Source of the DNA: Xiphophorus maculatus
Lineage: Eukaryota; Chordata; Actinopteri; Cyprinodontiformes; Poeciliidae
Direction of reading: 5' to 3'
DNA: 64,000 bases
Assembly (NCBI RefSeq): GCF_002775205.1
Contig: NC_036461.1
Location: 20,804,015-20,868,014, forward strand
The notes beneath the pieces are model-generated. The model saw nothing but the letters and a program-made list of their open reading frames with translations. It searched no databases and was not told where the DNA came from. Positions 327 through 25,251 of this stretch are shown here, piece after piece. Position numbers and translations under genes: made by a program. How positions within the stretch are numbered: the first letter of the stretch is position 1; the number at the start of each line of letters is the position of its first letter.

Positions 327-672
327 TCATAGTTTTAAGTCGTTGGCTATTTTGGAAGTAATGTTCTTGAAAGCGATGGACGACCCGGATATCCTTTGGA
401 AGCGGACGCCGTTCAGGGAGAGACGGGGGAGCCTGCAGACCTCCATCTCCCACTGGACCAGGTTCTCGGCCCGCCCGTCGCCATGGACGCAGAGGAGCAG
501 GAAACTCTCTTGCTGTTCGTAGTCGCAGTTGTTGGCGTCGAGCACCTTGCGGATCTCCCTCATGATGTCGCAGGGCTCCATGGAGCTGGTGGTTCTCATA
601 TTCCAAGTGAATCTGAGGGAGCGGGGCTTACCGTCTTTAATTTCCCCTTTCTGATCCCCAGGTACATGGCGA
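327..672 (-). pseudogene. Orphan last exon of a MARK-family kinase (KA1 domain), copy 1
   Basis: On the minus strand the frame reads [11 protein letters not shown], then [33 protein letters not shown] and [12 protein letters not shown], ending KIANDLKL and a stop at 327. This is the KA1 (kinase-associated 1) domain that closes MARK1-4, which binds acidic phospholipids and helps autoinhibit the kinase. A good acceptor (polypyrimidine tract then CCCCACAG) precedes base 672, so this is a genomic exon rather than a retrocopy. No other MARK exon (kinase, UBA) is visible upstream on that strand. The frame is open and residues typical of the family are kept, so decay is slight. It could be a fragment carried by the segmental repeat, or the last exon of a small KA1-only gene; see 3429-3570. 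Confidence 0.75.
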
Positions 673-1250
673 CTGTGGGGAGAAAGACACGGAGGAGAGC
701 TTGGCTTAGAATAAATTAAAATCCTGCTGGGATTGTTTGCAACAAATCTTTCACAGAAGTGACTTTTTGTTTCTTTTAGATGCGGCAGTGAATGAAACTA
801 TAAAGTCTAATAAAGCTGAAGTTTTTCTTACTGTGACCTGAGCCGCTCTGAGCTCAGTTTATCTTTATGTCACATTTAGGTGGCAGCACAAAGCTGTGGA
901 GCCTTTAACTAGACAAAATGTAGTCAACAGTCATTACAGCTTTTTTGATTTTTTGCTTGTGAAACCAACTTTTATTTTATTCCAGTTTAACGGTAAAGTT
1001 AAATCTTGTTTTAATAATAATAAAAAACAGTTGTAAATAATCTATTAGCATATTTACTCTCTCGTTACTTTTACTACATTTTGTCTGTGACTTCCAAACT
1101 GAGAAAGGGGAAGTAAAAGAAAGTAAAAACAGACTGAAGCCATCTCTGAAAAACCCAGAATATCACTGCAACATTAAGATTTGATTCACTGTACATAAAT
1201 AAATTTTTAAAAAGTTCTTCAACTGTCGATAAGATGTTTGAAACATAAAC

Positions 1251-2500
1251 TAGTGATGGGTCCGGTAACACCGATGCGTCGGCGCATGTGTCAAGCTCAT
1301 AGACCAAAATCAGCGTCGGTGCGCGTATCGTTTTCAGCAAGTCACGTGACCGATACAGGAACTGTTTCCAAATGACACTGGTGCGCCAAACTGTTTATAT
1401 ATGGAAGCCAATCTGTCAACGGGATGCATTTGCCAAAATAATTCTTGACCTTTTACGGTACAGCGTCAACTATGGAGCCTCAAGGCAAACGAAAGGTTTG
1501 GTAGTATGGGGCCATTTTAATCTTACGTCAGAAAATAAGGTATTGGTTCTCACTTCGTAGTTGTTTCATCCGGTTCTTTTCAGTTTCTACTCCATCTATC
1601 TGAATCCAAATTCAGCTGAAACCGACTCTTAGTTTACTTTCATATTATGCTCTGCAGGTTAAGTTTTGCATGTTTCTCCTTTGAAATTATACATTTCATA
1701 ATTTTATTCTTAAATTACCCTCCATAAATAAAAATCTTTAGGCAGAAAAAAGTGAAATAAAGACAATCCCGCTATAAATAAATACACAAAAGACATTTCC
1801 AGCAAAACACATCCATAAAGATCTGCGTACAAAATATAAAAGACAAAATGTAAGTTATGTGAACAATATACAGTGTCACTAAAATCTGTTTTATTTAAAT
1901 AAATTCACCTCCTCAATGCTGAGGCATAGGGCATCAGAATGAAGTCACAGATACACCTGGATAAACTCAGGTATACAGCCAGTCTACAAATTACTCAGCT
2001 GCTTTTTATCAATTATTTCATATAAATGTTTTGTTTACTTCATTTTTTCTACAGCAGGAGAAGTTGTGTCAAAAAAACGGAACAGATTAAATTTCAAAAT
2101 TTTAGAAAAACATTTTTTTTTTTTTAAATGAAAATTTGTGGGAAAAAACACCAACAAAAAACCCCCAGTCCACAAGCATCCTCATTCCAAACACGATCGC
2201 TTTCATTTTCATCACTTGGTTCATGTTCACATTACTTATTGACTGTATCGAAGAATATCAAATATATTTTGATTTTAACTGAAGATATGACATTATACAA
2301 TATATAATATACGATGAAATTAAATGACTTAAATCTTATTGTATAGACTAGGTCATCAAATCAGTCTGTGAACTGAGTTGCCTGTAGGGATTTTTAATGT
2401 CCAGCAGGTGTCAGTATTCAGTGACACAGTATTGACGCGGTATCAATACAGTTTTGCTTTGGGTCAAAACGATACATGACGCCTCATTTACCCATCACTA
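1251..2500 (+). mobile_element. Non-autonomous hAT transposon with BED-finger remnant, copy A
   Basis: The element is bounded by a perfect 8-bp target duplication, ACATAAAC at 1243-1250 and 2501-2508. Its ends are inverted: TAGTGATGGGT at the left and ACCCATCACTA at the right. Both are diagnostic of hAT elements. Near the left end an open frame (1372-1560) reads VVWGHFNLTSENKV, which resembles the start of a BED zinc finger as found at the N terminus of fish hAT transposases. The rest of the transposase is missing. The same element with the same target site is at 21536-22783, so it inserted before the host unit was duplicated. Confidence 0.85.
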
Positions 2501-3338
2501 ACATAAACATCTTCATACCTGACAATTGGAGATTAAAAACTTATTTCTGATAGGAAATGACAACAGCATCTCAAAAGATAATGTAAGAATTTCAAAGTAA
2601 CTAAACTACTTATAACATTCCTCAATAATCAATTAAAAAATATTGACTGACTTTAAAGCAGTCAAACTTTTTTAAATCTATTTTCATTTCTGATCAGCTC
2701 TTTCCATGTTTCCTCATGTAGCAGAAGCTCCACGTCTTCTTACTAATTTATAAGATCAAAGGGATTCCTTCAAAACATGTATTTTACATAACAGCATAAA
2801 ATCTTTTTGTAACTTCAGTATTCTAATGTATATTAGTTTTATTTGAAATAAATCTATTTTGTTTGTCTTTTGTGTCGTTTTGATTTGAAACCCCAGTAAT
2901 TATTGACTTAACATTTAAATCTATTTATTTAGTAAATAACACAAAGAAATTCTGGTCGTTTCTTCTTCTCTGGCTTTATAAACCAGAGAAGAAACAAACA
3001 AACAAACAAAAACAAAAAAAACATTTCTACTTTTCATATCCATTTTTCTTTTAAATTACCAAAATTTGACATTTTAAAATAGTTTTTACTAAAAGCCTCC
3101 ACCGCTTTCTGGGTTTTTCATAGATCATGTAAAGGAATATTTTTGGAGAATCTCAACAGAAACCGGAGACATTTCAGCAGAATTAAAGCAGACTTTGAAT
3201 CTTCAGCTAGCATGCAGCGTTAGCAGAGCGGCACGTCACACAGCCATGCAACCGCAGCAACAAAGCTGCAACAACACACTGCTGCAACTCCTACACACTC
3301 AGGGCAAAGCAGCGCGGGCCTGACGCTACATGGGAAGC

Positions 3339-3340
<2 letters not shown>

Positions 3341-3403
<63 letters not shown>
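3341..3403. repeat. (TG)n microsatellite, unit copy A
   Basis: Uninterrupted TG dinucleotides for about 63 bases. The matching tract in unit copy B (23601-23661) is slightly shorter. Confidence 0.97.
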
Positions 3404-3404
<1 letters not shown>

Positions 3405-3428
3405 GGGGGGCAGCAGGTATAAGCTCAC

Positions 3429-3570
3429 CTTGAGCCCTCAAGTCTCCCGTTTCTCTCAAACTCGGTTGAGACTCTGAGGCGCCGTGAGAAAATTCACACG
3501 GGGAGTCAGAGGAGAAGAAAACAACAAAACAGATTGTGGATTGTGCACAACACAAATCATTTCTCGTCAA
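3429..3570 (-). other. Candidate minus-strand 5' exon within the repeat unit, copy A
   Basis: On the minus strand a CpG-containing stretch ends in CTCAAG followed by the strong donor GTGAGC at 3428-3423. It has no long reading frame that looks coding, so it would be a 5' UTR exon. The only plausible downstream exon on the same strand in the unit is the MARK KA1 exon (acceptor at 673). Splicing the two would skip the hAT element and give a message whose main frame is the KA1 domain alone. This is inference from splice motifs; the exon start is not defined. The same sequence and donor occur in copy B, ending at 23684. Confidence 0.35.
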
Positions 3571-4172
3571 TTTCAGTGAATGGAAGAGAAAAGAAAAGAG
3601 AAATCAAGTGTGTGACGGAATACGTTAGCGACGGTGTGAGCCACCACCAACACGTCACTGAGCAGTGAGCTCAGTGACGTGAGCAGTCAGCGTTTGCTGC
3701 CTCAAGTTAACGTTAGCTTCCAAGTCTCAGTTTCTTACAATGTAATGTTATTTCATTGTATTTCACAAATTACTTCAGGAGCATAACGAGGTGCAAAGCG
3801 TTTGCTAGCATGAGCTATTTTCACAAAACCCTTCAAAGGTGAACGTTGAACGTGTTTGGAGATTTGAGGACATTCAAGCGACACCGGTTTCCTTGACCGG
3901 TGGTTCCGTTTGGCAAGCAAAATAGCCGCTACAAACTCAACCCCTACCTTCTCCGAAGCTTGACTTTTTTGGTTCAAACTAGCTTCAACCAGTCTGCATT
4001 TATACGTCAAATAAATGCTGCTTTTAATCCCGCTGGAAGTGACAGCTACGGCGTTCATGGGCAACGCACGTGGTGTTGTTTTCAACGGAAGTGACGTGAA
4101 AAGGCCCGGATGATGATCACCCGGTGACGTCAAAATGCTAAGAGTTATATTAATAGTAGCGCCATTCTATAG

Positions 4173-4390
4173 CGGGCTGCACAGTGGCTCAGTCCGTAAG
4201 GTTGTTGCCTTACAGTCGAAAGGTTGTGGGTTCGCTTCCCATAACTACTGTAGGAGTTTGCATGTTCTCCCTGTGCATGCGTGGGTTTCCTCCGGGTACT
4301 CCGGTTTCCTCCCACATTCCAAAAACATGACAACAAGGTAAGAGTTCATTGGTCACTCCAAATTCTCCCTAGGTGTGAGTGTGTTCCCCT
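4173..4390 (+). mobile_element. tRNA-derived SINE, unit copy A
   Basis: The head has RNA polymerase III promoter boxes: an A-box-like TGGCTCAGTCCGTAAGG and a B-box GGTTCGCTTCC about 30 bases later. The body (GAGTTTGCATGTTCTCCCTG and the CTCCGGGTACTCCGG block) is the widespread teleost SINE-like core. It is repeated at 19421 and 24429. The exact family name is not assigned. Confidence 0.7.
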
Positions 4391-4902
4391 TAGATAGAAA
4401 TGGATGAATGGAAAATAAAATTTTTTTTAATGATTTATGTTAATCGCCATATAGAGACCTAATAAATTCAGATGCTTTGACTCGCCAGTAAGCGCTTTGC
4501 TCTCCTCCCACAGAGCCTCCTTCCCAGTTTTTTGCCAGGTGACTGTTGAGGAGTTTGTCCATGGACAAACAGCAAACAGGAGCTTTGTTGGGGGGTTTTC
4601 TACGGCAAAATTAATAACAACGAATCAAAAGTTATTCAGTTCTTTTTGCTTGATTTGAAAAATATGCACAATTTGATGAATCGTTTTTTTTCCACTGTGA
4701 AACCAACTTTTTTTTTTAGCTAAGTCTAGGCTAACAGACATTAAGGGTGTGAGAAGCTTCTTACCACAAGAAGGATCGATCAGCGATTAGTGCGTCGTTA
4801 AGCGCATCATTCAAGAGCGCATTAGTACGCGGCTGGCGTGCAGCGCCAGCAAACAGCGAGGTGTGAACCGGAAGGAAAACATGATGTCTACCAGGTGAGG
4901 GC

Positions 4903-8642: not shown

Positions 8643-8718
8643 CCATCCATCCATCCATCCATCCATCCATCCATCCATCCATCCATCCATCCATCCATCC
8701 ATCCATCCATCCATCCAT
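8643..8718. repeat. (CCAT)n tract at the 3' end of the Rex3 element
   Basis: Nineteen or so tandem CCAT units lie directly against the Rex3 3' end. RTE-clade LINEs typically end in short tandem repeats, so this is probably the element's own tail (GGAT on the minus strand), later expanded. Confidence 0.9.
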
Positions 8719-10045
8719 CTTCTTCCGCTTATCCGAGGTCGGGTCGCGGGGGTAGCAGCTTCAGAAGGGAGGCCCAGACTTCCCTCTCCCCAGCCACTTC
8801 TTCTAGCTCTTCCGGGGGAATCCCGAGGCGTTCCCAGGCCAGCCGAGAGACATAGTCCCTCCAGCGTGTCCTGGGTCTTCCCCGGGGCCTCCTCCCGGTG
8901 GGACGTGCCCGGAACACCTCACCAGGGAGGCGTCCAGGAGGCATCCTGACCAGATGCCCGAGCCACCTCAACTGGCTCCTCTCGATGTGAAGGAGCAGCG
9001 GCTCTACTCTGAGTCCCTCCCGGATGACTGAGCTTCTCACCCTATCTCTAAGGGAGAGCCCAGCCACCCTACGGAGAAAACCCATTTCGGCCGCTTGTAT
9101 CCGCGATCTCGTTCTTTCGGTCATGACCCAAAGCTCATGACCATAGATGAGGGTGGGAACGTAGATCGACCGGTAAATCGAGAGCTTCGCTTTTTGGCTC
9201 AGCTCTCTCTTCACCACGACGGACCGGTACAGCGCCCGCTTGACAGCAGACGCTGCGCCAATCCGCCTGTCGATCTCCCGCTCCCTTCTTCCCCCATTCG
9301 TGAACAAGATCCCGAGATACTTAAACTCCTCCACTTGGGGCAGGACATCCCCCCTGACCCGGAGAAGGCACTCTACCCTTTTCCGGCTCAAGACCATGGC
9401 CTCGGATTTGGAGGCACTGATCCCCATCCCGGCCGCTTCACACTCGGCTGCGAACCGCTCCAGCGAGAGCTGCAGATCACGATCTGATGAAGCCAAAAGG
9501 ACCACATCGTCTGCGAAAAGCAGAGATGAGATCCTAAGGCCACCAAATCGGACCCCCTCAACACCTTGGCTGCGCCTAGAAATTCTGTCCATGAAAGTGA
9601 TGAACAGAATCGGTGACAAAGGGCAGCCCTGGCGGAGTCCAACTCTCACCGGAAACGAGCCCGACTTACTGCCGGCAATGCGGACCAGACTCTGACACCG
9701 GTCATACAGGGACCTGACAGCCCGTATCAAAGGGCCCGGTACCCCATACTCCCGGAGAACCCCCCACAGGGCTCCCCGAGGGACACGGTCGAACGCCTTC
9801 TCCAAGTCCACAAAACACATGTAGACTGGTTGGGCGAACTCCCATGCACCCTCCAGGACCCTGCCGAGGGTGTAGAGCTGGTCCAGTGTTCCACGACCAG
9901 GACGAAAACCACACTGCTCTTCCTGGATCCGAGGTTCGACTATCCGACGGACCCTCCTCTCCAGGACCCCTGAATAGACCTTGCCAGGGAGGCTTAAGAG
10001 TGTGACCCCTCTATAATTGGAGCACACCCTCCGGTCACAGAACAC
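8719..10045 (-). mobile_element. Rex3-type (RTE clade) non-LTR retrotransposon, 5' truncated
   Basis: A 438-codon minus-strand frame (10045-8729) is a reverse transcriptase. Visible motifs are SNYRGVTLLSLPGKVYSGVL, EEQCGFRPGRGT, FVDLEKAFDRVPR, GLRQGCPLSPILF, LLFADDVVLLAS (catalytic FADD) and FKYLGILFTNGG, followed by the basic C-terminal [15 protein letters not shown]. The DNA CGGTGACAAAGGGCAGCCCTG near 9611 matches, as I recall, the conserved stretch used to amplify fish Rex3. The endonuclease and the start of the RT are missing, as usual for 5'-truncated insertions. The RT frame is uninterrupted, so the insertion is fairly young. It lies between the repeat unit and the minisatellite gene. 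Confidence 0.92.
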
Positions 10046-10993
10046 AGAAAAATCACAAAAGAAGAATAGACATTAAAAAAAATACCCGACCCAAGTTCAG
10101 GCTTTTTTTTTTTTTTTTTTTCTGTGTTGTAACACATGAACATGGTATTGGCCATATAAACTATTTGTTTCATAAGATTAATAGTTTATCTACATAAAAC
10201 TTTACTCCACATGCTCTCCATTTCCTTTCCTCTGATCCTGTTCTCTAGTGTCTCTCTGAAAAAAAAATCTTAATTAAATCCTTCAATCATAAATTATGTC
10301 TATGTTCTCCTTTGTCTTCTAATTTCTTATTGTCCTGATGCTTTAATTTGGTTTCTGATACAACGTATTGTCAGGCAAGCATTCCTTACTTAATGTAAAT
10401 TTTAACTCTATGTGGTTGAGCACTTTGTAAATTACTAATAACTTCTATTTCTGTTTTGATTTAGTAAAGCTGATGGTCCCCACCACCAGCAGGAGGCAAG
10501 CAGTATCATGTGAATGTGGAAAAACTTACAAGCAGTGTGAAAAACAAGGGGTCCAGAAGGACAGGAACCACATGGACGACGACGAAAGGATCCAGCGATG
10601 AGCAGCTAAAACCTGAAAGATTAAAACCTTGGAGAGTGGATTAGTGGAGGAACAGAATAGAATAATTTACTATATCAGAGAGCACCGCGTGGGGAAGAAC
10701 CGCTATTTCACCCTGAAACATGGGGAAGATGAGAGGAAGACACAAAAACGAAGAAAACTCCGGTGCAAGGCGCTACCTAAGGCTTCCTGAGTCCTGCCAG
10801 AATCCTCAACATCTAAAATGCTACATCTAGCAGCGAGATAAAGAAAAGCCCCGGTGCAAGGCGCTACCTAAGGCTTCCACAGGCTTGCTAGAAATCCATT
10901 GGCTTTAATAAAACAAAAAAAAAAAAACAGAGAAATGATGATATGTCCTAATGTGACTTCCCACATAGGTCCTCAGTTTTTACGGATCCCAAT
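10046..10993. other. Non-coding interval with a poly(A)-ended plus-strand stretch
   Basis: No gene is seen. A plus-strand stretch around 10455-10925 ends in TTTAATAAAAC and a run of A, which looks like a retro-inserted transcript. It holds a 25-bp sequence present twice (GGTGCAAGGCGCTACCTAAG at about 10762 and 10853). Read on the minus strand the same region would be the 3' UTR of the minisatellite gene, with ATTAAA near 10908 as a possible poly(A) signal. The two readings cannot be separated from sequence alone. Confidence 0.45.
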
Positions 10994-11668
10994 CTAATCA
11001 GAGTCACTTGAAACGTAGCGAGGTCTAAACCACACGTGTCTGGAACTCGCTCTTGCTGTAGTTCCACTAGATGTTGAAGGTGTCGGTTCCTCTTCTATGT
11101 CCTTTTCAGTCTCCATCCGGAAACGGAGGTCAGGGGATGACAAAGTTGGATTTTCACGGTGTGTTGATGGTGAAGGACTGAAAACGTGGGGTGACAAAAC
11201 GGGATTTTCACAGTGCGTCGATGGTGAGGGACTGACGTCAGGGGATGAGAGAAAAAGATCCTCTTGCATCGTCCCTCGTGAGGGACTGAGGACAGGGGAT
11301 GACAAAACAGGACGTTTACGTGGCATTCTATACGAGGGACTGAGGACGGGGGATGACAGACCAGGATCCCCACACGACGTCCTTGGTGAGGGACTGAGGA
11401 CGGGGGATGACAGACCAGGATCCCCACACGACGTCCTTGGTGAGGGACTGAGGATAGGGGATGACAGACCAGGATCCCCACACGCTGTCCTTGGTGAGAG
11501 ACTGAGGACAGGGGATAACAGAATAGGATCTTCATGGTCTGTCTTTCGGTATGGAATGAACAGAGGGGTTGACGGAATGGGCTCGTCCTCCCATTCTTTA
11601 CCATATCTCCATGCCATCCTTCTGCCGATACTTTGAAGGACCTCGTCCCAAATGGGATCTTCATTATA
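10994..11668 (-). CDS. In-frame continuation of the minisatellite gene beyond the TAG
   Basis: Directly after the TAG, in the same frame, 224 codons stay open: YNEDPIWDEVLQSIGRRM, WRYGKEWEDEPIPSTP, then about eight 18-residue units such as SPSPRTSCGDPGLSSPVL, and a Ser/Arg-containing end SSRHVWFRPRYVSSDSD with a stop at 10994. The total from 13096 is exactly 701 codons. The repeats are rich in Ser-Pro pairs, typical targets of proline-directed kinases. Continuity of frame and style indicates one original protein, so the TAG is a recent nonsense change, a base error, or a read-through site. An internal ATG at 11617 could also start a separate 207-residue product. Function unknown. Confidence 0.5.
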   Translation of the reverse strand, partial: YNEDPIWDEVLQSIGRRMAWRYGKEWEDEPIPSTPLFIPYRKTDHEDPILLSPVLSLSPRTACGDPGLSSPILSPSPRTSCGDPGLSSPVLSPSPRTSCGDPGLSSPVLSPSYRMPRKRPVLSSPVLSPSRGTMQEDLFLSSPDVSPSPSTHCENPVLSPHVFSPSPSTHRENPTLSSPDLRFRMETEKDIEEEPTPSTSSGTTARASSRHVWFRPRYVSSDSD

Positions 11669-13096
11669 CTACTGTGCCGTCTTGGCTGGGAGCTCCTCTT
11701 CAGCAACAGTGTCTCTAGTCCTCTTGGCTGGGGGCTCCTCTTCAGCAACACTGTCTCTGGTCCTCTTGGCTGGGGGCTCATCTTCAGCAACACTGTCCCT
11801 GGTCCTCTTGGAGGGGAGCACATCTTCAGTTTGATTCTCCCTGACCCTCTTGGCAGAGGGCTCCTGTGTAGCATCATCATTATTCCTGGTCCTCTTGGCT
11901 GGGAGTTTCACTTCAGTAACACTGTCCCTGGTCTTCTTGGCAGGGAGCTCCTTTTCAGCAAGAGTGTCCTTACTCCTCTTGGCTGGGGGCTCCTCTTTAG
12001 CAACAGTGTCCCTGGTCCTCTTTCCTGGGGGCTGCTCTTCAGCATCACTGTCGTTTGTCCTCTTTCGGTTTATGCCAGTCACAGATGTCGCATGAGTCAC
12101 GTCCTCTTTCGAACCTACCCGATCGCTAGGCTTGGATGGTGTGTCATCCTCCTTCGCATCAACCACCTTCTTTGGAATTCTAATGGCACGGCAAAAAGTC
12201 ACTAAATTTCTCCAACCTGCCAGAGGTTGTGGCGAGGCACTGATAGGAATGGAGTCCTCTGGACGCAAAATGGGCTCTTCCAGTTTGTCAAAGCTGGAAG
12301 GAAGCACTGTACCAGAACTAAGCTTTAATGGTGGGTTGTCCTCCTTCGCAGCATCCACCTTCTGTGTAATGCTCCTGGCGCGGCCAGAAGTCAAAGAAGC
12401 CCCGTCCTCTTCCAAACCTACCTGATGGTATTGCGAGGTACCAATAGGTCTGGAGTTCTCTGGACGCAAAATGGGCTCTTCCTGTTTGTCAAGTCCAGAC
12501 GTGAATTCAAGTGAAGTACAAGGAGACGTGTCTTCTTCAGGCTTCTCAGCTACCCCAATGTCTTTAATGTATTTGAAATTTGGGGGAAGAATCTCAAGAA
12601 TCTCAGAACGCAGTGACGCAGCACTGCCACGGTCCACAGCGGAGCTCAGCTGATCAAGCTTCGAATTGAGATGTTTCAATGACTGTTCAAGCACTCCTAT
12701 GCCCCACAGGAATTTAATGTTTGGTGCAAGGACCTGGACAATCCGAAGTCTGGAATAAAAGTCATCCTGGTCTTCATTATTAGCCTCGTCTTCACTGGAG
12801 CTGGTAGTAGAGCTACCGCTGGAGCTAGTAGTAGAGCTACCACTGGAGCTAGTAGTAGAGCTACCACTGGAGCTGATAGTACAGGCATTACCTACCTCAT
12901 CTTCACTGGAGCTGGTAGTAGAGCTACCACTGGGGCTGGTAGCACAGTCCACAGACTGCGGAGGTGAACTACACCTCAACCCCTCTCCGTAGTCTTCAGA
13001 AACCATGTCGGTTTCATTTGACCACACCTTACCGTGTTCCTTACCATTGTCTGGAAGTCCCTCCAACTTTGGGGATCCATCTGCTGGAAACGCCAT
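11669..13096 (-). CDS. Unfamiliar serine-rich, NLS-repeat protein, copy 1 (up to TAG)
   Basis: I do not recognise this protein. The 475-residue frame starts MAFPADGSPKLEGL, eight bases inside an exon whose acceptor (TTCCTTTACAG) ends at 13105, so an upstream 5' UTR exon is expected. Order of parts: an acidic start; a serine tract of 8-residue units (SGSSTTSS) broken by SEDEVGN; a more ordered part with two related motifs, VLAPNIKFLWGIGVLEQ and ILPPNFKYIKDIGVAEK; two copies of a block containing EEPILRPE and VDAKED; and at least eight 14-residue units like PPAKRTRDSVAEEE. The PAKRTRD cores resemble the monopartite c-Myc nuclear signal PAAKRVKLD, so a nuclear, mostly disordered protein is inferred. 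It stops at TAG 11669-11671, but the frame continues open; see 10994-11668. A tandem copy is at 15278-16442. Confidence 0.6.
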   Translation of the reverse strand: MAFPADGSPKLEGLPDNGKEHGKVWSNETDMVSEDYGEGLRCSSPPQSVDCATSPSGSSTTSSSEDEVGNACTISSSGSSTTSSSGSSTTSSSGSSTTSSSEDEANNEDQDDFYSRLRIVQVLAPNIKFLWGIGVLEQSLKHLNSKLDQLSSAVDRGSAASLRSEILEILPPNFKYIKDIGVAEKPEEDTSPCTSLEFTSGLDKQEEPILRPENSRPIGTSQYHQVGLEEDGASLTSGRARSITQKVDAAKEDNPPLKLSSGTVLPSSFDKLEEPILRPEDSIPISASPQPLAGWRNLVTFCRAIRIPKKVVDAKEDDTPSKPSDRVGSKEDVTHATSVTGINRKRTNDSDAEEQPPGKRTRDTVAKEEPPAKRSKDTLAEKELPAKKTRDSVTEVKLPAKRTRNNDDATQEPSAKRVRENQTEDVLPSKRTRDSVAEDEPPAKRTRDSVAEEEPPAKRTRDTVAEEELPAKTAQ

Positions 13097-14555
13097 GGTC
13101 TGAGCTGTAAAGGAAGAAACAAAGCAAAAAAAGCTATAATTCAGGATCTAGACCTTCACAAAAGTCCAAAGCAATGTTTTGAGGGAACTAAAATACCAAC
13201 AATACAATAACCCAGGTTTGTGAATGTGTTTTTTTTCTTGAATATATTTAATTAACAATATTATTGCTATGCCATTGTATTTGATTATACAATAAGGACG
13301 GGAATTAAGAGATAAAACAAATATAGCTTATCTTTAGTCACAAAAAAACAGCAAAAAATACAATTTTACATAAAAACCAGAACACACTCTAAAACTCAAT
13401 GATCAAACATGTATGGAGCATCGCCACTCAGACAAACGAACTTGCAGCTTCATCTTGGTACCAATCAATCATTAAAGACAACAAATCAAATTTAGACTTA
13501 TTGGCAATTCATCCCTAACCATAAACTATTAAACATTTGGAAACATAAATTAAAGAGCTATACACTGTGTTTAGAATGTCTTAATAGCTACTGAAACACC
13601 TGTAATCTTAGACTGTGCCATAAGTGTGAATAAAATAAGACTGCAACAAGTTACTCAGTTTACCTTTATATAACAACCCATCCTCACAAATCTTTGATGC
13701 TCAGGTACATTTGATCATTCTTAACAATAGCCAGGGATAAGATATGTGATCCATTCATAATTATTACACTTAAATCACTGCTTACACAACTTTAATAGTT
13801 TAAAAGTATCAAAGTTTAGAAATATATGTTTCCAATTGCATTTGTAAATTACCAAAATGTTAATTGTAGTTAATCAAACTAAATTCCTTTGAGCTCCACA
13901 ATTTTTCACAATCACAAAGACAGCAAGTCTGACACCCCATCAGTCTTACCTTCATACTCCCACATATAGCCAACAGCAGAAATGTAAACCTGTAAAATTA
14001 ATTAAGTTTAAAGACTGGGGATCTAAATAAACAGGCCGACATAAGTGGCCTTTCCTCCGTTTCCAGGGGCTCCCTCCTACAAAAATAAAACTGTTTATTT
14101 GGTTAAGAAATCCATATCCAGTGTTAAAATGGCCATTATATTTTGTCTGGAGATAAGCCAGACAAAATCATTAAAATAATAATCTGCATCCCTTATGTGT
14201 GCATCATGCCTCAAAGATGGAGCAAAACACTGTTTTTCTGGTCTTGAGTAATTACAATAAACTAAATAATTGAGTTACTTTGTGAAATCAACAGGTACAC
14301 ATTGATTGTTCTTTAAAGATTTTTCTAAGAATAAAGTTGTGTGTTATTTATTCAATGTATCCATGGAGACTACAAACATTTTTTCAAACCAAAACAACTC
14401 CAGTCAGCATTACTGACATTTTCCAGAATTTCAAAGAACTAGCATATAAATCACAAAACAAATTCAATTAACTCACAAATACGTTGCACCCCAAAAATGC
14501 AATTATATTTTCCTAGACAGAGAGTTTTAATTTCCAAAAACTGAACACCAAAGTC

Positions 14556-14622
14556 ATCAAAGCTGATTTTTTTTTTTTTTTTTACAAAGAAATCCTTATT
14601 TTCTTTGTAAAAATCAGCTTTA
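14556..14622. repeat. Imperfect palindrome with a long T run
   Basis: AAAGCTGATTTTT and TTTACAAAGAAA on the left are mirrored by TTTCTTTGTAAA and AATCAGCTTT on the right, with a T run extended to about 17 on one arm. The duplicate at about 17904-17968 has one change in the right arm (TTTGTTAAAATC). It may be a small MITE or a hairpin-forming poly(T) site. Confidence 0.7.
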
Positions 14623-14682
14623 ATTGATGATAACTACAGTATGTCTATACACGATTCATTGCCTACTAATGTTCTATCATTA

Positions 14683-14683
14683 A

Positions 14684-14740
<57 letters not shown>
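14683..14740. repeat. (CA)n microsatellite
   Basis: About 28 CA units. The duplicate position near 18031-18048 has only about 9 units, a marked length difference between otherwise near-identical copies. Confidence 0.95.
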
Positions 14741-14741
<1 letters not shown>

Positions 14742-14778
14742 ATGCTTATTACTGGGGCAACAGTGGTAGGAGTTTGCT

Positions 14779-15277
14779 NNNNNNNNNNNNNNNNNNNNNN
14801 NNNNNNNNNNNNNNNNNNNNNNNNNNNNNNNNNNNNNNNNNNNNNNNNNNNNNNNNNNNNNNNNNNNNNNNNNNNNNNNNNNNNNNNNNNNNNNNNNNNN
14901 NNNNNNNNNNNNNNNNNNNNNNNNNNNNNNNNNNNNNNNNNNNNNNNNNNNNNNNNNNNNNNNNNNNNNNNNNNNNNNNNNNNNNNNNNNNNNNNNNNNN
15001 NNNNNNNNNNNNNNNNNNNNNNNNNNNNNNNNNNNNNNNNNNNNNNNNNNNNNNNNNNNNNNNNNNNNNNNNNNNNNNNNNNNNNNNNNNNNNNNNNNNN
15101 NNNNNNNNNNNNNNNNNNNNNNNNNNNNNNNNNNNNNNNNNNNNNNNNNNNNNNNNNNNNNNNNNNNNNNNNNNNNNNNNNNNNNNNNNNNNNNNNNNNN
15201 NNNNNNNNNNNNNNNNNNNNNNNNNNNNNNNNNNNNNNNNNNNNNNNNNNNNNNNNNNNNNNNNNNNNNNNNNNNNN
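14779..15277. other. Assembly gap (499 N)
   Basis: The run of N replaces the 3' part of minisatellite gene copy 2 (the equivalent of 10994-12131) and the far upstream part of copy 1. By comparison with copy 1 at least 1.1 kb of coding sequence is missing, so the gap length is not literal. Confidence 0.99.
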
Positions 15278-16442
15278 GCTTTGATGGTGGGTCGTCCTGC
15301 TTCCCATCATCCACCTTCTTTGGAATTCTAATGGCGCGGCAAAAAGTCACTAAATTTCTCCAACCTGCCAGAGGTTGTGGCGAGGCACTGATAGGAATGG
15401 AGTCCTCTCGACGCAAAATGGGCTCTTCCGGTTTGTCAAGTCCAAATGTGAATTTAAAGCTGGAAGGAAGCACTGTACCAAAACTAAGCTTTAATGGTGG
15501 GTCGTCCTCCTTTGCGGAATCCACCTTCTGTGTAATGCTCATGGCATGGCCAGAAGTCAAAGAAGCCCCGTCCTCTTCCAAACCTACCTGATGGTGTTGC
15601 GAGGTACCAATAGGTCTGGAGTTCTCTGGACGCAAAATGGGCTCTTCCTGTTTGTCAAGTCCAGACGTGAATTCAAGTGAAGTACAAGGAGACGTGTCTT
15701 CTTCAGGCTTCTCAGCTACCCCAATGTCTTGTATGAATTTGAAATTTGGAGGAAGAATCTCAAGAATCTCAGAGTGCCAGTGCAGTGATGCAGCACTGCC
15801 ACGGTCCATAGCGGAGCTCAGCTGATCAAACTTCGAATTGAGATGTTTCAATGACTGTTCAAGCACTCCTATGCCCCACAGGAATTTAATGTTTGGTGCA
15901 AGGACCTGGACAATTCGAAGTCTGGAATTAAAGTAATCCTGGTCTTCATTATTAACCTCGTCTTTATTGGAGCTGGTAGTACAGTCGTTACCTACCTCGT
16001 CTTCACTGGAGCTGGTAGTAGAGCTACCGCTGGAGCTGGTAGTAGAGCTACCGCTGGAGCTGGTAGTAGAGCTACCGCTGGAGGTGGTAATACAGGCATT
16101 ACCTACCTCGTCTTCACTGGAGCTGGTAGTAGAGCTACCGCTGGAGCTGGTAGTAGAGCTACCGCTGGAGGTGGTAATACAGGCATTACCTACCTCGTCT
16201 TCACTGGAGCTGGTAGTAGAGCTACCGCTGGAGCTGGTAGTAGAGCTACCGCTGGAGCTGATAGTAGAGCTACCACTGGGGCTGGTAGCACAGTCCACAG
16301 ACTGCGGAGGTGAACTACACCTCAACCCCTCTCCGTAGTCTTCAGAAACCATGTCGGTTTCATTTGACCACACCTTACCGTGTTCCTTACCATTGTCTGG
16401 AAGTCCCTCCAACTTTGGGGATCCATCTGCTGGAAGCGCCAT
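15278..16442 (-). CDS. Unfamiliar serine-rich protein, copy 2 (3' part lost in gap)
   Basis: A tandem duplicate of 12132-13096 starting MALPADGSPKLEGL at 16442, offset 3346 bases. The N-terminal half is intact up to the gap. It differs from copy 1 chiefly in the serine minisatellite: SEDEVGNACITT plus two or three SGSSTTSS units is present in more copies. Small in-frame insertions also occur (LHWHSEILE against LRSEILE; an extra KFTFGLDK-type stretch). All indels are multiples of three, which suggests the frame has been under selection or that the copies are very young. The exon begins at 16450 after the same TTTACAG acceptor. The 14- and 18-residue repeat regions are not visible. A promoter-like sequence upstream lies at 18741-18990. 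Confidence 0.6.
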
Positions 16443-16450
16443 GGTCTGAG

Positions 16451-18057
16451 CTGTAAAGGAAGAAACAAAGCAAAAAAAGCTATAATTCAGGATCTAGACC
16501 TTCACAAAAGTCCAAAGCAATGTTTTGAGGGAACTAAAATACCAACAATACAATAACCCAGGTTTGTGAATGTGTTTTTTTTCTTGAATATATTTAATTA
16601 ACAATATTATTGCTATGCCATTGTATTTGATTATACAATAAAGACGGGAATTAAGAGATAAAACAAATATAGCTTATCTTTAGTCACAAAAAAACAGCAA
16701 AAAATACAATTTTACATAAAAACCAGAACACACTCTAAAACTCAATGATCAAACATGTATGGAGCATCGCCACTCAGACAAACGAACTTGCAGCTTCATC
16801 TTGGTACCAATCAATCATTAAAGACAACAAATCAAATTTAGACTTATTGGCAATTCATCCCTAACCATAAACTATTAAACATTTGGAAACATAAATTAAA
16901 GAGCTATACACTGTGTTTAGAATGTCTTAATAGCTACTGAAACACCTGTAATCTTAGACTGTGCCATAAGTGTGAATGAAATAAGACTGCAACAAGTTAC
17001 TCAGTTTACCTTTATATAACAACCCATCCTCACAAATCTTTGATGCTCAGGTACATTTGATCACTCTTAACAATAGCCAGGGATAAGATATGTGATCCAT
17101 TCATAATTATTACACTTAAATCACTGCTTACACAACTTTAATAGTTTAAAAGTATCAAAGTTTAGAAATATATGTTTCCAATTGCATTTGTAAATTACCA
17201 AAATGTTAATTGTAGTTAATCAAACTAAATTCCTCTGAGCTCCACAATTTTTCACAATCACAAAGACAGCAAGTCTGACACCCCATCAGTATTACCTTCA
17301 TACTCCCACATATAGCCAACAGCAGAAATGTAAACCTGTAAAATTAATTAAGTTTAAAGACTGGGGATCTAAATAAACAGGCCGACATAAGTGGCCTTTC
17401 CTCCGTTTCCAGGGGCTCCCTCCTACAAAAATAAAACTGTTTATTTGGTTAAGAAATCCATATCCAGTGTTAAAATGGCCATTATATTTTGTCTGGAGAT
17501 AAGCCAGACAAAATCATTAAAATAATAATCTGCATCCCTTATGTGTGCATCATGCCTCAAAGATGGAGCAAAACACTGTTTTTCTGGTCTTGAGTAATTA
17601 CAATAAACTAAATAATTGAGTTACTTTGTGAAATCAACAGGTACACATTGATTGTTCTTTAAAGATTTTTCTAAGAATAAAGTTGTGTGTTATTTATTCA
17701 ATGTATCCATGGAGACTACAAACATTTTTTCAAACCAAAACAACTCCAGTCAGCATTACTGACATTTTCCAGAATTTCAAATAACTAGCATATAAATCAC
17801 AAAACAAATTCAATTAACTCACAAATACGTTGCACCCCAAAAATGCAATTATATTTTCCTAGACAGAGAGTTTTAATTTCCAAAAACAGAACACCAAAGT
17901 CATCAAAGCTGATTTTTTTTTTTTTTTTACAAAGAAATCCTTATTTTCTTTGTTAAAATCAGCTTTAATTGATGATAACTACTGTATGTCTATACACGAT
18001 TCATTGCCTACGAATGTTCTATCATTAACAAACACACACACACACACATAATGCTTA
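16451..18057 (-). other. Intron/upstream region of the minisatellite gene, copy 2
   Basis: Non-coding and nearly identical to 13105-14740. It represents the intron between the coding exon and the candidate first exon at 18741-18950. No other exon was found in it. Confidence 0.75.
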
Positions 18058-18440: not shown

Positions 18441-18740
18441 TAATTTTCCAGAAATTTGACGTTAATTTAACTAATTTGACTATAATTAAGTAAAATACAT
18501 ATATTTCATAAATCACTACACCACAGTTTAACATTCCTGACATTTCCAGCGAAATTCAGTTAAGAAAAAGCCTCATTAGTTAAGAACGATCTATGCTAGC
18601 AAAGAATGCTACTAGTCTTTTTTTTCTACAGCAGTCAGTATTTCTTTAAAACACACACACACAAAATAAACTAAACAAGTCACTAATATCTTAGTAATAT
18701 CTTGCTTTCGTTTATTAAAAAATAAAAGAACGATTTTAAC

Positions 18741-18990
18741 CTTCCAGCTGGTCACCCTGTTGGTGCTTCTCCTGGCCAGGAACCGTCTTTCGCAGGTTTC
18801 TTATCCACGGGCTTCTTCAGCAAGTGCGTATTTCAGCAAGCGCTTCTTTAACAAGTTTTGCACAGCAGACTTTTCAACAAGCTCAAACCGTCCGAGGCTG
18901 TAAAGGCTCCTTCAGGCGTCTCTCTCAAAAGTCCCGTCGCAAAGGGGAAAAAACTCAGAAGGTCAGCGTCATTTATAGGCTTGAGGACGC
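18741..18990 (-). promoter_or_regulatory. Candidate TATA promoter and first exon of the minisatellite gene
   Basis: On the minus strand CTATAAAT (18978-18971) is a good TATA box. About 30 bases on, a transcript would start near 18945 and run through a GC-richer stretch to CAGCTGGAAG at 18741, followed by GTTAAA, a weak donor. It would join the acceptor at 16451 as a non-coding first exon. Only copy 2 has this sequence in view; the equivalent for copy 1 is inside or beyond the gap. Inference from motifs only. Confidence 0.35.
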
Positions 18991-19078
18991 TAACGTCGTT
19001 TCCATGACTTTCATTGACGAACGCACGCACTGGTGCGTCAGAGAAATCGGACTACAAATAATGCAGGAAATGCAAGTA

Positions 19079-20237
19079 TCGCGTTGTCATGTTTATCACT
19101 CCTTATGCTGCCACCTACTGGCCAACCGGTCTAAGTTCACAATGACATTTTTAAAACTTACACGACTGATGTGACATAATATTTCTGCTTTCATTATTAA
19201 CTATGTCAGTTTCGGACCATCAAATGGGAAAAACTTCTCTCTGTCGTAAAGCATGGTTTGGAAGAAAAATTCAAAATTCAATTCAAAAATACTTTATTGA
19301 TCCAAAACAGGGGTCACCAACACGGTTCCCATGGGAACCCGGTTGCTAACGTAGTCAGCCGAGAACGCAGGTGACGTCAAAATGCTAAGAGTTATATTAA
19401 TAGTAGCGCCATTCTATAGCGGGCTGCACAGTGGCTCAGTCCGTAAGGTTGTTGCCTTGCAGTCGGAAGGTTGTGGGTTCGCTTCCCACAACTACTGTAG
19501 GAGTTTGCATGTTCTCCCTGTGCATGCGTGGGTTTCCTCCGGGTACTCCGGTTTCCTCCCACATTCCAAAAACATGACAACAAGGTAAGAGTTCATTGGT
19601 CACTCCAAATTCTCCCTAGGTGTGAGTGTGTTCCCCTTAGATAGAAATGGATGAATGGAAAATAAATTTTTTTTAATGATTTATGTTAATCGCCATATAG
19701 AGACCTAATAAATTCAGATGCTTTGACTCGCCAGTAAGCGCTTTGCTCTCCTCCCACAGAGCCTCCTTCCCAGTTTTTTGACAGGTGACTGTTGAGGAGT
19801 TTGTCCATGGACAAACAGCAAACAGGAGCTTTGTTGGGGGGTTTTCTATGGCAAAATTAATAACAACGAATCAAAAGTTATTCAGTTCTTTTTGCTTGAT
19901 TTGAAAAATATGCACAATTTGATGAATCGTTTTTTTTCCACTATGAAAACAACTTTTTTTTTAGCTAAGTCTAGGCTAACAGTCATTAAGGGTGTGAGAA
20001 GCTTCTTACCACAAGAAGGATCGATCAGCGATTAGTGCGTCGTTAAGTCGTCATTCAAGAGCGCATTAGTACGCGGCTGGTGTGCAGCGCCAGCAAACAG
20101 CGAGGTGTGAACCGGAAGGAAAACATGATGTCTACCAGGTCAGGGAGGGCCCTTAATATACAGACAGCGCCACAACCAATTAAATTCAGGCACTTGTGTG
20201 ACGCGTTCAGATCCCACAGGGCATACTGCCACACAAG
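19079..20237. repeat. Segmental repeat unit with ~3.9 kb internal deletion (copy C)
   Basis: It starts with the unit's first bases (TATCGCGTTGTCATGTTTATC, compare 20238 and 25252). It matches the unit up to the CAGGGGTCACCAACACGG block near 19325, then jumps to the sequence equivalent to about 4125 before the SINE. The MARK exon, hAT element and (TG)n are therefore absent. It ends where copy B starts. Confidence 0.88.
19421..19638 (+). mobile_element. tRNA-derived SINE, unit copy C
   Basis: Same element and position as 4173-4390, including the B-box GGTTCGCTTCC. It keeps CCCACAACTACTG where copies A and B have CCCATAACTACTG. Confidence 0.7.
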
Positions 20238-20611
20238 TATCACGTTGTCATGTTTATCACTCCTTATGCTGCCACCTATTGTCCAACCAGTCTAAGTTCA
20301 CAATGACATTTTTGAAACTGTCACTGCTGATGTGACATTATATTTCTGCTTTCAGTTTCCGACCTTCAAATGGGGAAAACTTCTCTCTGTCATAAAGCAT
20401 GGTTTGGAAGAAAGATTCAAAATTCAATTCAAAAATACTTTATTGATCCAAAACAGGGGTCACCAACACGGTGCCCGCCGGAACCCGGTTGCCCCAGGGG
20501 ACAAAAAGGAGACATTTGGAAACTGCTACTTGGATGATTGTACAGCTTCAATACCTCTGAATATAGATTTGATTTAGATTTTTTTTTTACTTATCTTTTA
20601 AGTCCTTTTGT

Positions 20612-20957
20612 TCATAGATTTAAGTCGTTGGCTATTTTGGAAGCAATGTTCTTGAAAGCGATGGACGACCCGGATATCCTTTGGAAGCGGACGCCGTTCA
20701 GGGAGAGACGGGGGAGCCTGCAGACCTCCATCTCCCACTGGACCAGGTTCTCGGCCCGCCCGTCGCCATGGACGCAGAGGAGCAGGAAACTCTCTTGCTG
20801 TTCGTAGTCGCAGTTGTTGGCGTCGAGCACCTTGCGGATCTCCCTCATGATGTCGCAGGGCTCCATGGAGCTGGTGGTTCTCATATTCCAAGTGAATCTG
20901 AGGGAGCGGGGCTTACCGTCTTTAATTTCCCCTTTCTGATCCCCAGGTACATGGCGA
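20612..20957 (-). pseudogene. Orphan last exon of a MARK-family kinase (KA1 domain), copy 2
   Basis: Duplicate of 327-672 with the same acceptor and open frame. It ends SKIANDLNL where copy 1 ends SKIANDLKL, and reads FKNIASKI (the usual family form) where copy 1 reads FKNITSKI. The two copies therefore differ at the protein level in at least two positions and neither is broken. Confidence 0.75.
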
Positions 20958-21535
20958 CTGTGGGGAGAAAGACACGGAGGAGAGCTTGGCTTAGAATAAA
21001 TTAAAATCCTGCTGGGATTGTTTGCAACAAATCTTTCACAGAAGTGACTTTTTGTTTCTTTTAGGGGCGGCAGTGAATGAAACTATAAAGTCTAATAAAG
21101 CTGAAGTTTTTCTTACTGTGACCTGAGCCGCTCTGAGCTCAGTTTATCTTTATGTCACATTTAGGTGGCAGCACAAAGCTGTGGAGCCTTTAACTAGACA
21201 AAATGTAGTCAACAGTCATTACAGCTTTTTTGATTTTTTGCTTGTGAAACCAACTTTTATTTTATTCCAGTTTAGCGGTAAAGTTAAATCTTATTTTAAT
21301 AATAATAAAAAACAGTTGTAAATAATCTATTAGCATATTTACTCTCTCATTACTTTTACTACATTTTGTCTGTGACTTCCAAACTGAGAAAGGGGAAGTA
21401 AAAGAAAGTAAAAACTGACTGAAGCCATCTCTGAAAAACCCAGAATATCACTGCAACATTAAGATTTGATTCACTGTACATAAATAAATTTTTAAAAAGT
21501 TCTTCAACTGTCGATAAGATGTTTGAAACATAAAC

Positions 21536-22783
21536 TAGTGATGGGTCCGGTAACACCGATGCGTCGGCGCATGTGTCAAGCTCATAGACCAAAATCAGCG
21601 TCGGTGCGCGTATCGTTTTCAGCAAGTCACGTGACCGATACAGGAACTGTTTCCAAATGACACTGGTGCGCCAAACTGTTTATATATGGAAGCCAATCTG
21701 TCAACGGGATGCATTTGCCAAAATAATTCTTGACCTTTTACGGTACAGCGTCAACTATGGAGCCTCAAGGCAAACGAAAGGTTTGGTAGTATGGGGCCAT
21801 TTTAATCTTACGTCAGAGAATAAGGTATTGGTTCTCACTTCGTAGTTGTTTCATCCGGTTCTTTTCAGTTTCTACTCCATCTATCTGAATCCAAATTCAG
21901 CTGAAACCGACTCTTAGTTTACTTTCATATTATGTTCTGCAGGTTAAGTTTTGCATGTTTCTCCTTTGAAATTATACATTTCATAATTTTATTCTTAAAT
22001 TACCCTCCATAAATAAAAATCTTTAGGCAGAAAAAAGGGAAATAAAGACAATCCCGCTATAAATAAATACACAAAAGACATTTCCAGCAAAACACATCCA
22101 TAAAGATCTGCGTACAAAATATAAAAGACAAAATGTAAGTTATGTGAACAATATACAGTGTCACTAAAATCTGCTTTATTTAAGTAAATTCACCTCCTCA
22201 ATGCTGAGGCATAGGGCATCAGAATGAAGTCACAGATACACCTGGATAAACTCAGGTATACAGCCAGTCTACAAATTACTCAGCTGCTTTTTATCAATTA
22301 TTTCATATAAATGTATTGTTTACTTCATTTTTTCTACAGCAGGAGAAGTTGTGTCAAAAAAACGGAACAGATTAAATTTCAAAATTTTAGAAAAACCTTT
22401 TTTTTTTTAAATGAAAATTTGTGGAAAAAAACACCAACAAAAAACCCCCAGTCCACAAGCATCCTCATTCCAAACACGATCGCTTTCATTTTCATCACTT
22501 GGTACATGTTCACATTACTTATTGACTGTATCGAAGAATATCAAATATATTTTGATTTTAACTGAAGATATGACATTATACAATATACAATATACGATGA
22601 AATTAAATGACTTAAATCTTATTGTATAGACTAGGTCATCAAATCAGTCTGTGAACTGCGTTGCCTGTAGGGATTTTTAATGTCCAGCAGGTGTCAGTAT
22701 TCAGTGACACAGTATTGACGCGGTATCAATACAGTTTTGCTTTGGGTCAAAACGACACATGACGCCTCATTTACCCATCACTA
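21536..22783 (+). mobile_element. Non-autonomous hAT transposon, copy B
   Basis: Same ends (TAGTGATGGGT / ACCCATCACTA) and the same 8-bp duplication ACATAAAC (21528-21535 and 22784-22791) as the element at 1251-2500, with the BED-finger-like VVWGHFNLTSENKV. It was duplicated with its host unit. Confidence 0.85.
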
Positions 22784-23599
22784 ACATAAACATCTTCATA
22801 CCTGACAATTGGAGATTAAAAACTTATTTCTGATAGGAAATGACAACAGCATCTCAAAAGATAATGTAAGAATTTCAAAGTAACTAAACTACTTATAACA
22901 TTCCTCAATAATCAATAAAAAAATATTGACTGACTTTAAAGCAGTCAAACTTTTTTAAATCTATTTTTATTTCTGATCAGCTCTTTCCATGTTTCCTCAT
23001 GTAGCAGAAGCTCCACGTCTTCTTACTAATTTATAAGATCAAGGGATTCCTTCAAAACATGTATTTTACATAACAGTATAAAATCTTTTTGTAACTTCAG
23101 TATTTTAATGTATATTAGTTTTATTTGAAATAAATCTATTTTGTGTCATTTTGATTTGAAACCCCAGTAATTATTGGCTTAACATTTAAATCTATTTATT
23201 TAGTAAATAACACAAAGAAATTCTGGTCGTTTCTTCTTCTCTGGCTTTACAAACCAGAGAAGAAACAAACAAAAACAAACAACATTTCTACTTTTCATAT
23301 CCATTTTTCTTTTAAATTACCAAAATTTGACATTTTAAAATAGTTTTTACTAAAAGCCTCCACCGCTTTCTGGGTTTTTCATAGATCATGTAAAGGAATA
23401 TTTTTGGAGAATCTCAACAGAAACCGGAGACATTTCAGCAGAATTAAAGCAGACTTTGAATCTTCAGCTAGCATGCAGCGTTAGCAGAGCGGCACGTCAC
23501 ACAGCCATGCAACCGCAGCAACAAAGCTGCAACAACACACTGCTGCAACTCCTACACACTCAGGGCAAAGCAGCGCGGGCCTGACGCTACATGGGAAGC

Positions 23600-23600
<1 letters not shown>

Positions 23601-23661
<61 letters not shown>
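23601..23661. repeat. (TG)n microsatellite, unit copy B
   Basis: About 30 TG units; counterpart of 3341-3403. Confidence 0.97.
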
Positions 23662-23663
<2 letters not shown>

Positions 23664-23683
23664 GGCAGCAGGTATAAGCTCAC

Positions 23684-23825
23684 CTTGAGCCCTCAAGTCT
23701 CCCGTTTCTCTCAAACTCGGTTGAGACTCTGAGGCGCCGTGAGAAAATTCACACGGGGAGTCAGAGGAGAAGAAAACAACAAAACAGATTGTGGATTGTG
23801 CACAACACAAATCATTTCTCATCAA
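23684..23825 (-). other. Candidate minus-strand 5' exon within the repeat unit, copy B
   Basis: Counterpart of 3429-3570, with the donor GTGAGC retained at 23683-23678. It would splice to the KA1 exon at 20957 if transcribed. Confidence 0.35.
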
Positions 23826-24428
23826 TTTCAGTGAATGGAAGAGAAAAGAAAAGAGAAATCAAGTGTGTGACGGAATACGTTAGCGACGGTGTGAGCCACC
23901 ACCAACACGTCACTGAGCAGTGAGCTCAGTGACGTGAGCAGTCAGCGTTTGCTGCCTCAAGTTAACGTTAGCTTCCAAGTCTCAGTTTCTTACAATGTAA
24001 TGTTATTTCATTGCATTTCACAAATTACTTCAGGAGCATAACGAGGTGCAAAGCGTTTGCTAGCATGAGCTATTTTCACAAAACCCTTCAAAGGTGAACG
24101 TTGAACGTGTTTGGAGATTTGAGGACATTCAAACGACACCGGTTTCCTTGACCGGTGGTTCCGTTTGGCAAGCAAAATAGCCGCTACAAACTCAACCCCT
24201 ACCTTCTCCGAAGCTTGACTTTTTTGGTTCAAACTAGCTTCAACCAGTCTGCATTTATACGTCAAATAAATGCTGCTTTTAATCCCGCTGGAAGTGACAG
24301 CTACGGCGTTCATGGGCAACGCACTTGGTGTTGTTTTCAACGGAAGTGACATGAAAAGGCCCGGATGATGATCACCCGGTGACGTCAAAATGCTAAGAGT
24401 TATATTAATAGTAGCGCCATTCTATAGC

Positions 24429-24646
24429 GGGCTGCACAGTGGCTCAGTCCGTAAGGTTGTTGCCTTACAGTCGAAAGGTTGTGGGTTCGCTTCCCATAAC
24501 TACTGTAGGAGTTTGCATGTTCTCCCTGTGCATGCGTGGGTTTCCTCCGGGTACTCCGGTTTCCTCCCACATTCCAAAAACATGACAACAAGGTAAGAGT
24601 TCATTGGTCACTCCAAATTCTCCCTAGGTGTGAGTGTGTTCCCCTT
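24429..24646 (+). mobile_element. tRNA-derived SINE, unit copy B
   Basis: Same SINE as 4173-4390, including the diagnostic CCCATAACTACTG. Confidence 0.7.
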
Positions 24647-25251
24647 AGATAGAAATGGATGAATGGAAAATAAAATTTTTTTTAATGATTTATGTTAATC
24701 GCCATATAGAGACCTAATAAATTCAGATGCTTTGACTCGCCAGTAAGCGCTTTGCTCTCCTCCCACAGAGCCTCCTTCCCAGTTTTTTGACAGGTGACTG
24801 TTGAGGAGTTTGTCCATGGACAAACAGCAAACAGGAGCTTTGTTGGGGGGTTTTCTACGGCAAAATTAATAACAACGAATCAAAAGTTATTCAGTTCTTT
24901 TTGCTTGATTTGAAAAATATGCACAATTTGATGAATCGTTTTTTTCCCCATTGTGAAACCAACTTTTTTTTTTTAAGCTAAGGCTAGGCTAACAGACATT
25001 AAGGGTGTGAGAAGCTTCTTACCACAAGAAGGATCGATCAGCGATTAGTGCGTCGTTAAGCGCATCATTCAAGAGCGCATTAGTACGCGGCTGGCGTGCA
25101 GCGCCAGCAAACAGCGGGGTGTGAACCGGAAGGAAAACATGATGTCTACCAGGTGAGGGAGGGCCCTTTATATACAGACAGCGCCACAACCAATTAAATT
25201 CAGGCACTTGTGTGACGCGTTCAGAGCCCACAGGGCATACTGCCACACAAG

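Follow-up and report, generated by a model that had tools for sequence, protein, structure and literature searches.

The stretch of DNA analysed here (the window: 64,000 nucleotides from Xiphophorus maculatus, contig NC_036461.1, forward-strand positions 20,804,015 to 20,868,014) carries two copies of a repeat-rich gene, both on the minus strand, and we found that this gene belongs to a family dispersed over the same genome. Below, C plus a number denotes a contig of that genome and L plus a number a locus of the family. Copy 1 starts with an ATG at 13096, in the context ACCATGG, with a TTTACAG splice acceptor eight bases before it. Judged by the reading of the frame and this acceptor context, its open reading frame (ORF; 11669..13096, minus strand) encodes 475 amino acids and ends with a TAG at 11669-11671. 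The first-pass annotation had assigned the gene a frame of 701 codons, which this in-frame stop after codon 475 contradicts. The same frame continues open for 224 codons beyond the stop (10994..11668, minus strand), and full-length members of the family have homologous sequence in their C-terminal part. At the position of the TAG, L023, L024 and the C16 copies L025-L028 (with frames broken upstream) read TGG; copy 1, by this comparison of sequences, is thus C-terminally truncated relative to the open members. A short intron across the TAG was rejected by eye (weak sites, ~50 bp).

In-frame arrays of 24-, 42- and 54-bp units had been described, and repeat analysis bore them out, all on the minus strand. 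The 24-bp array (SGSSTTSS) lies at 12793..12881, with further 24-bp arrays, including one at 16006-16089, and an 87-bp higher-order unit. The 42-bp array (PPAKRTRDSVAEEE; 9.1 copies) spans 11680..12064 and includes, at 12011..12064, a bipartite nuclear-localisation-type motif recognised by sequence, KRTNDSDAEEQPPGKRTR, while the 54-bp array (SPSPRTSCGDPGLSSPVL; 5.7 copies) lies at 11222..11530, downstream of the TAG. Two larger duplications, claimed earlier, also hold: the EEPILRPE block is doubled (12126..12492, as 12126-12291 and 12318-12492, with 76% identity over 175 bp), and a 14-residue motif occurs as VLAPNIKFLWGIGV (12692..12733) and ILPPNFKYIKDIGV (12551..12592), the two sharing 7 of 14 identities, a level that 6 of 1000 shuffled versions of the 78-residue domain reach. 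None of 20 Markov versions of the window had an ORF as long as the 475 codons of copy 1 (maximum 193), and 1000 Markov versions of its non-repeat 239-codon stretch contained no ORF of that length (longest 235). The 54-bp units lack stops in two further frames as well, one sense and one antisense, and the openness of this array is therefore weak evidence of coding.

Copy 2 starts at 16442, and 388 codons of its coding exon are visible (15278..16442, minus strand) up to an assembly gap of 499 N (14779..15277), which the exon abuts at 15278 and which covers its 3′ part. The attribution of three arrays to both copies thus stands for copy 1 but not for copy 2, where the gap hides the 42- and 54-bp arrays. 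Similarly, a partial second copy does exist, as the view of a tandem duplicate pair required, but the two are not merely a pair, since the family occupies at least 59 places. Between copies 1 and 2, the 600 bp before the ATG differ by 0.3% and the first 55 codons by a single change, whereas in the following 219 aligned non-repeat codons synonymous divergence (dS) is 0.077 and nonsynonymous divergence (dN) 0.041. Outside the repeats, dN/dS, the calculation that the first-pass annotation had recommended, is 0.55 (274 codons; 21 nonsynonymous and 11 synonymous changes), and indels between the copies are, as it had stated, multiples of three within the compared part. The near-identical 5′ part contrasts with the diverged later exon, and the copies are thus mosaic. 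This suggests gene conversion or nested duplication, the best reading being that the 5′ part was homogenised recently.

We searched the window's own genome (704,300,149 bases, 101 contigs) for further members. The DNA search scored 40 of 65 candidates, every one of them within the family's clusters, and a protein search, for which the first 191 residues of L032 served as query, returned 99 matches which, merged by hand, mark at least 59 places on 12 contigs. These are distributed, again as lower bounds, over C7 and C19 (at least 14 each), C14 (10), C10 (6), C16 (4), C17 (3), C13 and C59 (2 each) and C6, C11, C18 and C22 (1 each). Many lie in tandem arrays with units of ~12-25 kb; from match positions, the spacing is ~12.3-13.0 kb on C14, 14.5-15.0 kb on C7, 24.5-24.9 kb on C16 and ~15.2-17.0 kb on C19 at 23.1-23.2 Mb. 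We read 40 copies, in batches of 26, 6 and 8, and half of them (20/40) are open over 390-842 codons: all five read on C7, 5 of 6 on C14, 4 of 6 on C10, both on C13, the only copy examined on each of C6, C11 and C17, and, at 20.57 Mb, one of the 13 on C19. The last eight fetched, all dispersed, are all open. Eight copies, all on C19, are stopped after 461-549 codons by a TAG that they share, beyond which the frame of each stays open, and the C10 copies L020 and L021 end at the same place, at a TGA made by a frameshift. Nine of the 40 are broken earlier (four on C16, three on C19, one each on C14 and C59), and one is cut by the assembly gap. Among unfetched places, long open frames are listed on C7 (874-984) and C18 (966). 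Residues 28-32 of L035 read EPTRF in place of EADTV, which by eye resembles a compensating pair of small indels preserving the frame.

A motif of the type KR-x(10-13)-KRxR, which we take to match the bipartite importin-alpha signal, occurs in 19 of 20 open copies versus 41 of 2000 shuffles, supporting the earlier suggestion of nuclear signals and making a nuclear address probable. Open copies carry 2-18 KRxR units and 3-78 [ST]P sites, indicating that different clusters expanded different modules, and 18 of 20 end in DSD or DSN. Two AlphaFold models, in which the core contains a helical stretch, have mean pLDDT of 41 and 47.5 and were too poor for fold searches. The first-pass annotation could not place the protein in a known family; consistent with this, searches of Pfam, NCBIfam, PHROGs and PDB gave no relative that we accepted, and none of the 8 pattern matches in an IMG/VR scan of copy 1 was a relative. 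The top weak Pfam matches among 11 members, to New_glue (E 0.0023, 2/11), Miga (E 0.0066, 2/11) and SH3_YKFC (E 0.01, 1/11), were taken as compositional; in a search of nine members at E 0.01, none matched Pfam. Literature searches found nothing specific to this family, which, to that extent, is apparently not described in print. We infer from the motifs and models that the product would be a disordered nuclear phosphoprotein scaffold.

Upstream of the coding exon, the predicted gene model adds two exons and a promoter, all on the minus strand. A 40-nt exon 2 is predicted at 13950..13989 for copy 1 and at 17296..17335 for copy 2; joined to the coding exon it is in frame, and in copy 1 its ATG (MWEYE) would read into the main ORF. 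Exon 1 (18741..18945, 5′ start approximate, donor at 18740) is predicted to be non-coding, with no ATG in 205 nt, and a TATA box lies at 18972..18977, with a conserved promoter-proximal stretch before it (~18980-19043). Among the 19 loci L010-L028, all but L025 and L028 have the TATA box (CCTATAAAT; 17 loci) and all but L028 have the end of exon 1 (18 loci). The window and the C7 flank L040 also carry both, while L009 and L029-L033 stop short of this region. Of the 25 loci L009-L033, 18 have an exon 2 bordered by GT/AG; its acceptor is changed in L019, and the sequences of L029-L033 end before they could include it. Most copies whose 5′ region was fetched are predicted to have a TATA promoter and a first exon devoid of ATG. 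On the plus strand, a 144-codon frame at 18740-19174 is open antisense to the predicted promoter and exon 1, and similar-looking antisense frames of 135-151 codons occur in L010, L014, L017, L020, L023, L026 and L040.

The gene did not spread alone. Copies on C19, C10 and C16 share homology, with interruptions, over most of 9.3-9.9 kb around the gene; the comparison with C14 and C7 covered 3.2-3.5 kb only, plus L040, and for most other places the flanks are partial. Some units carry a passenger, a fragment of a MARK-type KA1 terminal exon, seen in the window at 20615..21082 and 330..797 (both minus strand). It has 14 matches at 93-100% (13 on C19, 1 on C10), which accompany some C19 units and one C10 unit. 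The blocks thus share a core with mosaic flanks, in that the gene is common to the clusters compared and the MARK KA1 exon only to some. As far as these alignments reach, the shared core is the gene rather than the MARK passenger, which is the anatomy of a core duplicon.

The exon evolves faster than its surroundings. In all 10 pairs compared, non-repeat exon divergence exceeded that of the flanks, by 1.2-3.0 fold (Fisher p<0.05 in 8/10), the pairs being non-independent and flank distances coming from alignable pieces only; this supports the fast evolution proposed earlier. Some intron distances, in pairs with L020, L029 or L031, were inflated by non-homologous stretches and left unused. Gaps between 11 pairs of intact copies were divisible by three in 96 of 143 cases in the coding exon, compared with 19 of 78 in the 5′ flank and 9 of 47 in the 3′ flank, although these copies had been picked for being open, which weakens the point. 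Pairwise dN/dS exceeded 1 in 10 of 61 defined pairs (undefined in 5 of 66). Around the nuclear localisation signal (NLS)-type motif, the ratio of nonsynonymous to synonymous proportions (pN/pS) was 0.55, with pN<pS in 19 of 21 pairs, for seven representatives chosen by motif match with a pattern that missed 11 of 21 copies. From these comparisons, the frame appears to be maintained and part of the protein constrained, while much of it drifts or is driven.

Taken together, these results are likely to reflect a dispersed family of disordered nuclear proteins that spread by segmental duplication with dynamics like those of the primate NPIP core duplicon, the window holding one truncated and one gap-interrupted copy. 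One long coding exon would encode a conserved N-terminus, an acidic-serine array, in many members a helical core, the EEPILRPE block, a bipartite NLS-type motif seeding a variable KRTRD array, an [ST]P-rich array that is also variable, and a conserved tail with LSSDSD at its end; its 5′ parts would be the TATA promoter and ATG-free first exon of most fetched copies and, in many, the 40-nt second exon. Genes with their flanks would have spread as segmental duplications and later been amplified in tandem, arrays would expand and contract by in-frame slippage or unequal exchange, and some copies would die through stops and frameshifts as others remain open. Importin alpha would presumably carry the protein into the nucleus, where, disordered, phosphorylatable and multivalent, it may serve as a scaffold; it would most likely act on chromatin or RNA, and the germline is a possible setting. 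In a bolder version, which we consider unlikely, the family would be a fish core duplicon whose product or unstable coding arrays promote the spread of the carrier blocks, through selfish or meiotic-conflict dynamics.

Several observations weigh against a maintained gene family. Most defined dN/dS values (53/61) lie between 0.5 and 1.3, pN/pS of the tail block is 0.97 (seven representatives chosen by motif match, the pattern missing 7 of 21 copies), and frame-specific constraint is slight in the array units; outside the NLS block, itself selected with a motif pattern, the protein therefore shows weak purifying selection. Synonymous sites also diverge faster than the flanks, and hypermutation of the GC-richer exon, or CpG content, may thus explain part of the acceleration. 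Exon 2 is lost from L020 and L021 and was not found in the C7 flank L040, where the best match has 18 of 40 positions mismatched, and is thus not universal; the usual tail is absent in L030 and L048. Of the first 12 C19 copies read, which include the one cut by the gap, none was visible at full length, and even in the best-preserved arrays, unfetched places at 6.97 Mb on C7 (365) and 3.19 Mb on C14 (340) have short frames and are probably broken. The starts of L041-L045 are uncertain, and in L043 and L045 GTA stands in place of the usual start codon, with the frame still open, which could mean loss of the start or translation from elsewhere and would fit a start in exon 2.

Alternatively, the family could be a decaying segmental duplication without a product, its frames long only because the units chance to be stop-free and the copies are young. 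In keeping with this, 19 of the 40 copies read are stopped or broken, dN/dS is mostly 0.5-1.3, the arrays lack codon constraint and the 54-bp array is open in several frames. However, the last eight dispersed members are all open, those compared being 13-29% apart (pairwise, loose alignments, arrays included), and in a neutral simulation at most 3.7% of eight ORFs stay stop-free at 8% divergence per lineage, although the eight members that supplied them are open and show this same 13-29% spread. The in-frame bias of gaps, the constraint on the NLS block and the conservation of the promoter and exon 1 also argue against decay, which we hold to be improbable. More improbable still is that the gene is an accessory ORF of a mobile element carrying the family round the genome. 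Dispersal across 12 contigs would suit such an element, as would the end of homology to the window ~60-90 bp before the TATA box in the diverged L022 and L040, but introns are apparently retained, hence these are no simple retrocopies, and inverted or direct similarity between the tested unit edges was not above shuffles. Visual inspection of the ORFs of 115 aa or more listed for nine loci revealed no transposase but some LINE-like pieces; no profile search was made. A further possibility, doubtful in our view though somewhat less so than these two, is that the truncated C19 form (461-549 aa) is a functional derivative that lost the SP-rich tail and was amplified as such. The eight C19 copies that share the TAG with an open downstream frame speak for it, but three other C19 copies are frameshifted early, and the open downstream frame may equally reflect a recent stop.

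Compared with known systems, the predicted protein resembles Nopp140 (NOLC1) and treacle, which are nuclear phosphoproteins of acidic-serine and basic repeats, in its acidic serine clusters alternating with Lys/Arg-Pro repeats and in its predicted disorder. Still, 11 members at E 0.1 and nine at E 0.01 gave no match to the Nopp140/NOLC1 and treacle Pfam families, and we know of no counterpart in these proteins to the SP-rich array and LSSDSD tail. Sperm nuclear basic proteins exemplify multicopy, fast-evolving germline gene families, and copy-number expansion, rapid change and a predicted nuclear address are shared with them; the seven open products counted, however, have roughly balanced or net negative charge and are not small basic proteins.

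The family is also close in kind to the primate core duplicon NPIP (morpheus)/LCR16a. In PMC7419210 and PMC3906575, NPIP is one gene in many duplication blocks with differing flanks, its exons evolve faster than adjacent introns, and its C-terminal coding variable-number tandem repeat (VNTR) varies between paralogues with the frame kept open. The fish family likewise combines a core gene common to its blocks, differing flanks, accelerated exons, a C-terminal coding VNTR and an open frame (PMC7419210, PMC3906575). The likeness meant here is one of anatomy, between a teleost and a primate host. Human core duplicons are, according to PMC6920530, generally confined to one chromosome, whereas the fish family lies on 12 contigs with tandem arrays. 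The same paper counts copy number that differs among individuals and broad expression among the traits of core duplicon families, and gives a signature of positive selection in at least half of the human ones; here the exon/flank ratio is 1.2-3.0, yet dN/dS exceeds 1 in only the 10 of 61 pairs mentioned above. If expressed, the genes would constitute a large vertebrate family missing from the profile libraries searched. A single genome here shows coding minisatellites, segmental duplication and gene death remodelling a probably nuclear protein, and offers a non-primate system for asking whether some genes are generally prone to core-duplicon dynamics. If the fish core duplicon reading were true, a nuclear protein would drive repeated segmental duplication in a non-primate vertebrate.

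The window also contains other duplicated and inserted sequences. Segments 1-4901 and 20292-25159 are 98.3% identical, each with a MARK-type KA1 terminal exon (327-797 and 20612-21082), and four further copies lie ~5 kb apart on C19 at 21.02-21.04 Mb. Of the more distant matches of the MARK exon, three elsewhere at 69-77% are probably ordinary MARK genes, and two are at 36-39%. On the 3′ side of copy 1, a LINE reverse-transcriptase fragment and a TCCA repeat (8643-10116) are absent from the homologous C19 unit L010 and are therefore probably a later insertion. The neighbours, at 30601-40248 and 49798-50238, are ordinary genes, one of pantothenate-kinase type (Fumble domain) and one with an SRCR domain; ORFs at 30601-32283, which have no Pfam match, may resemble MAVS.

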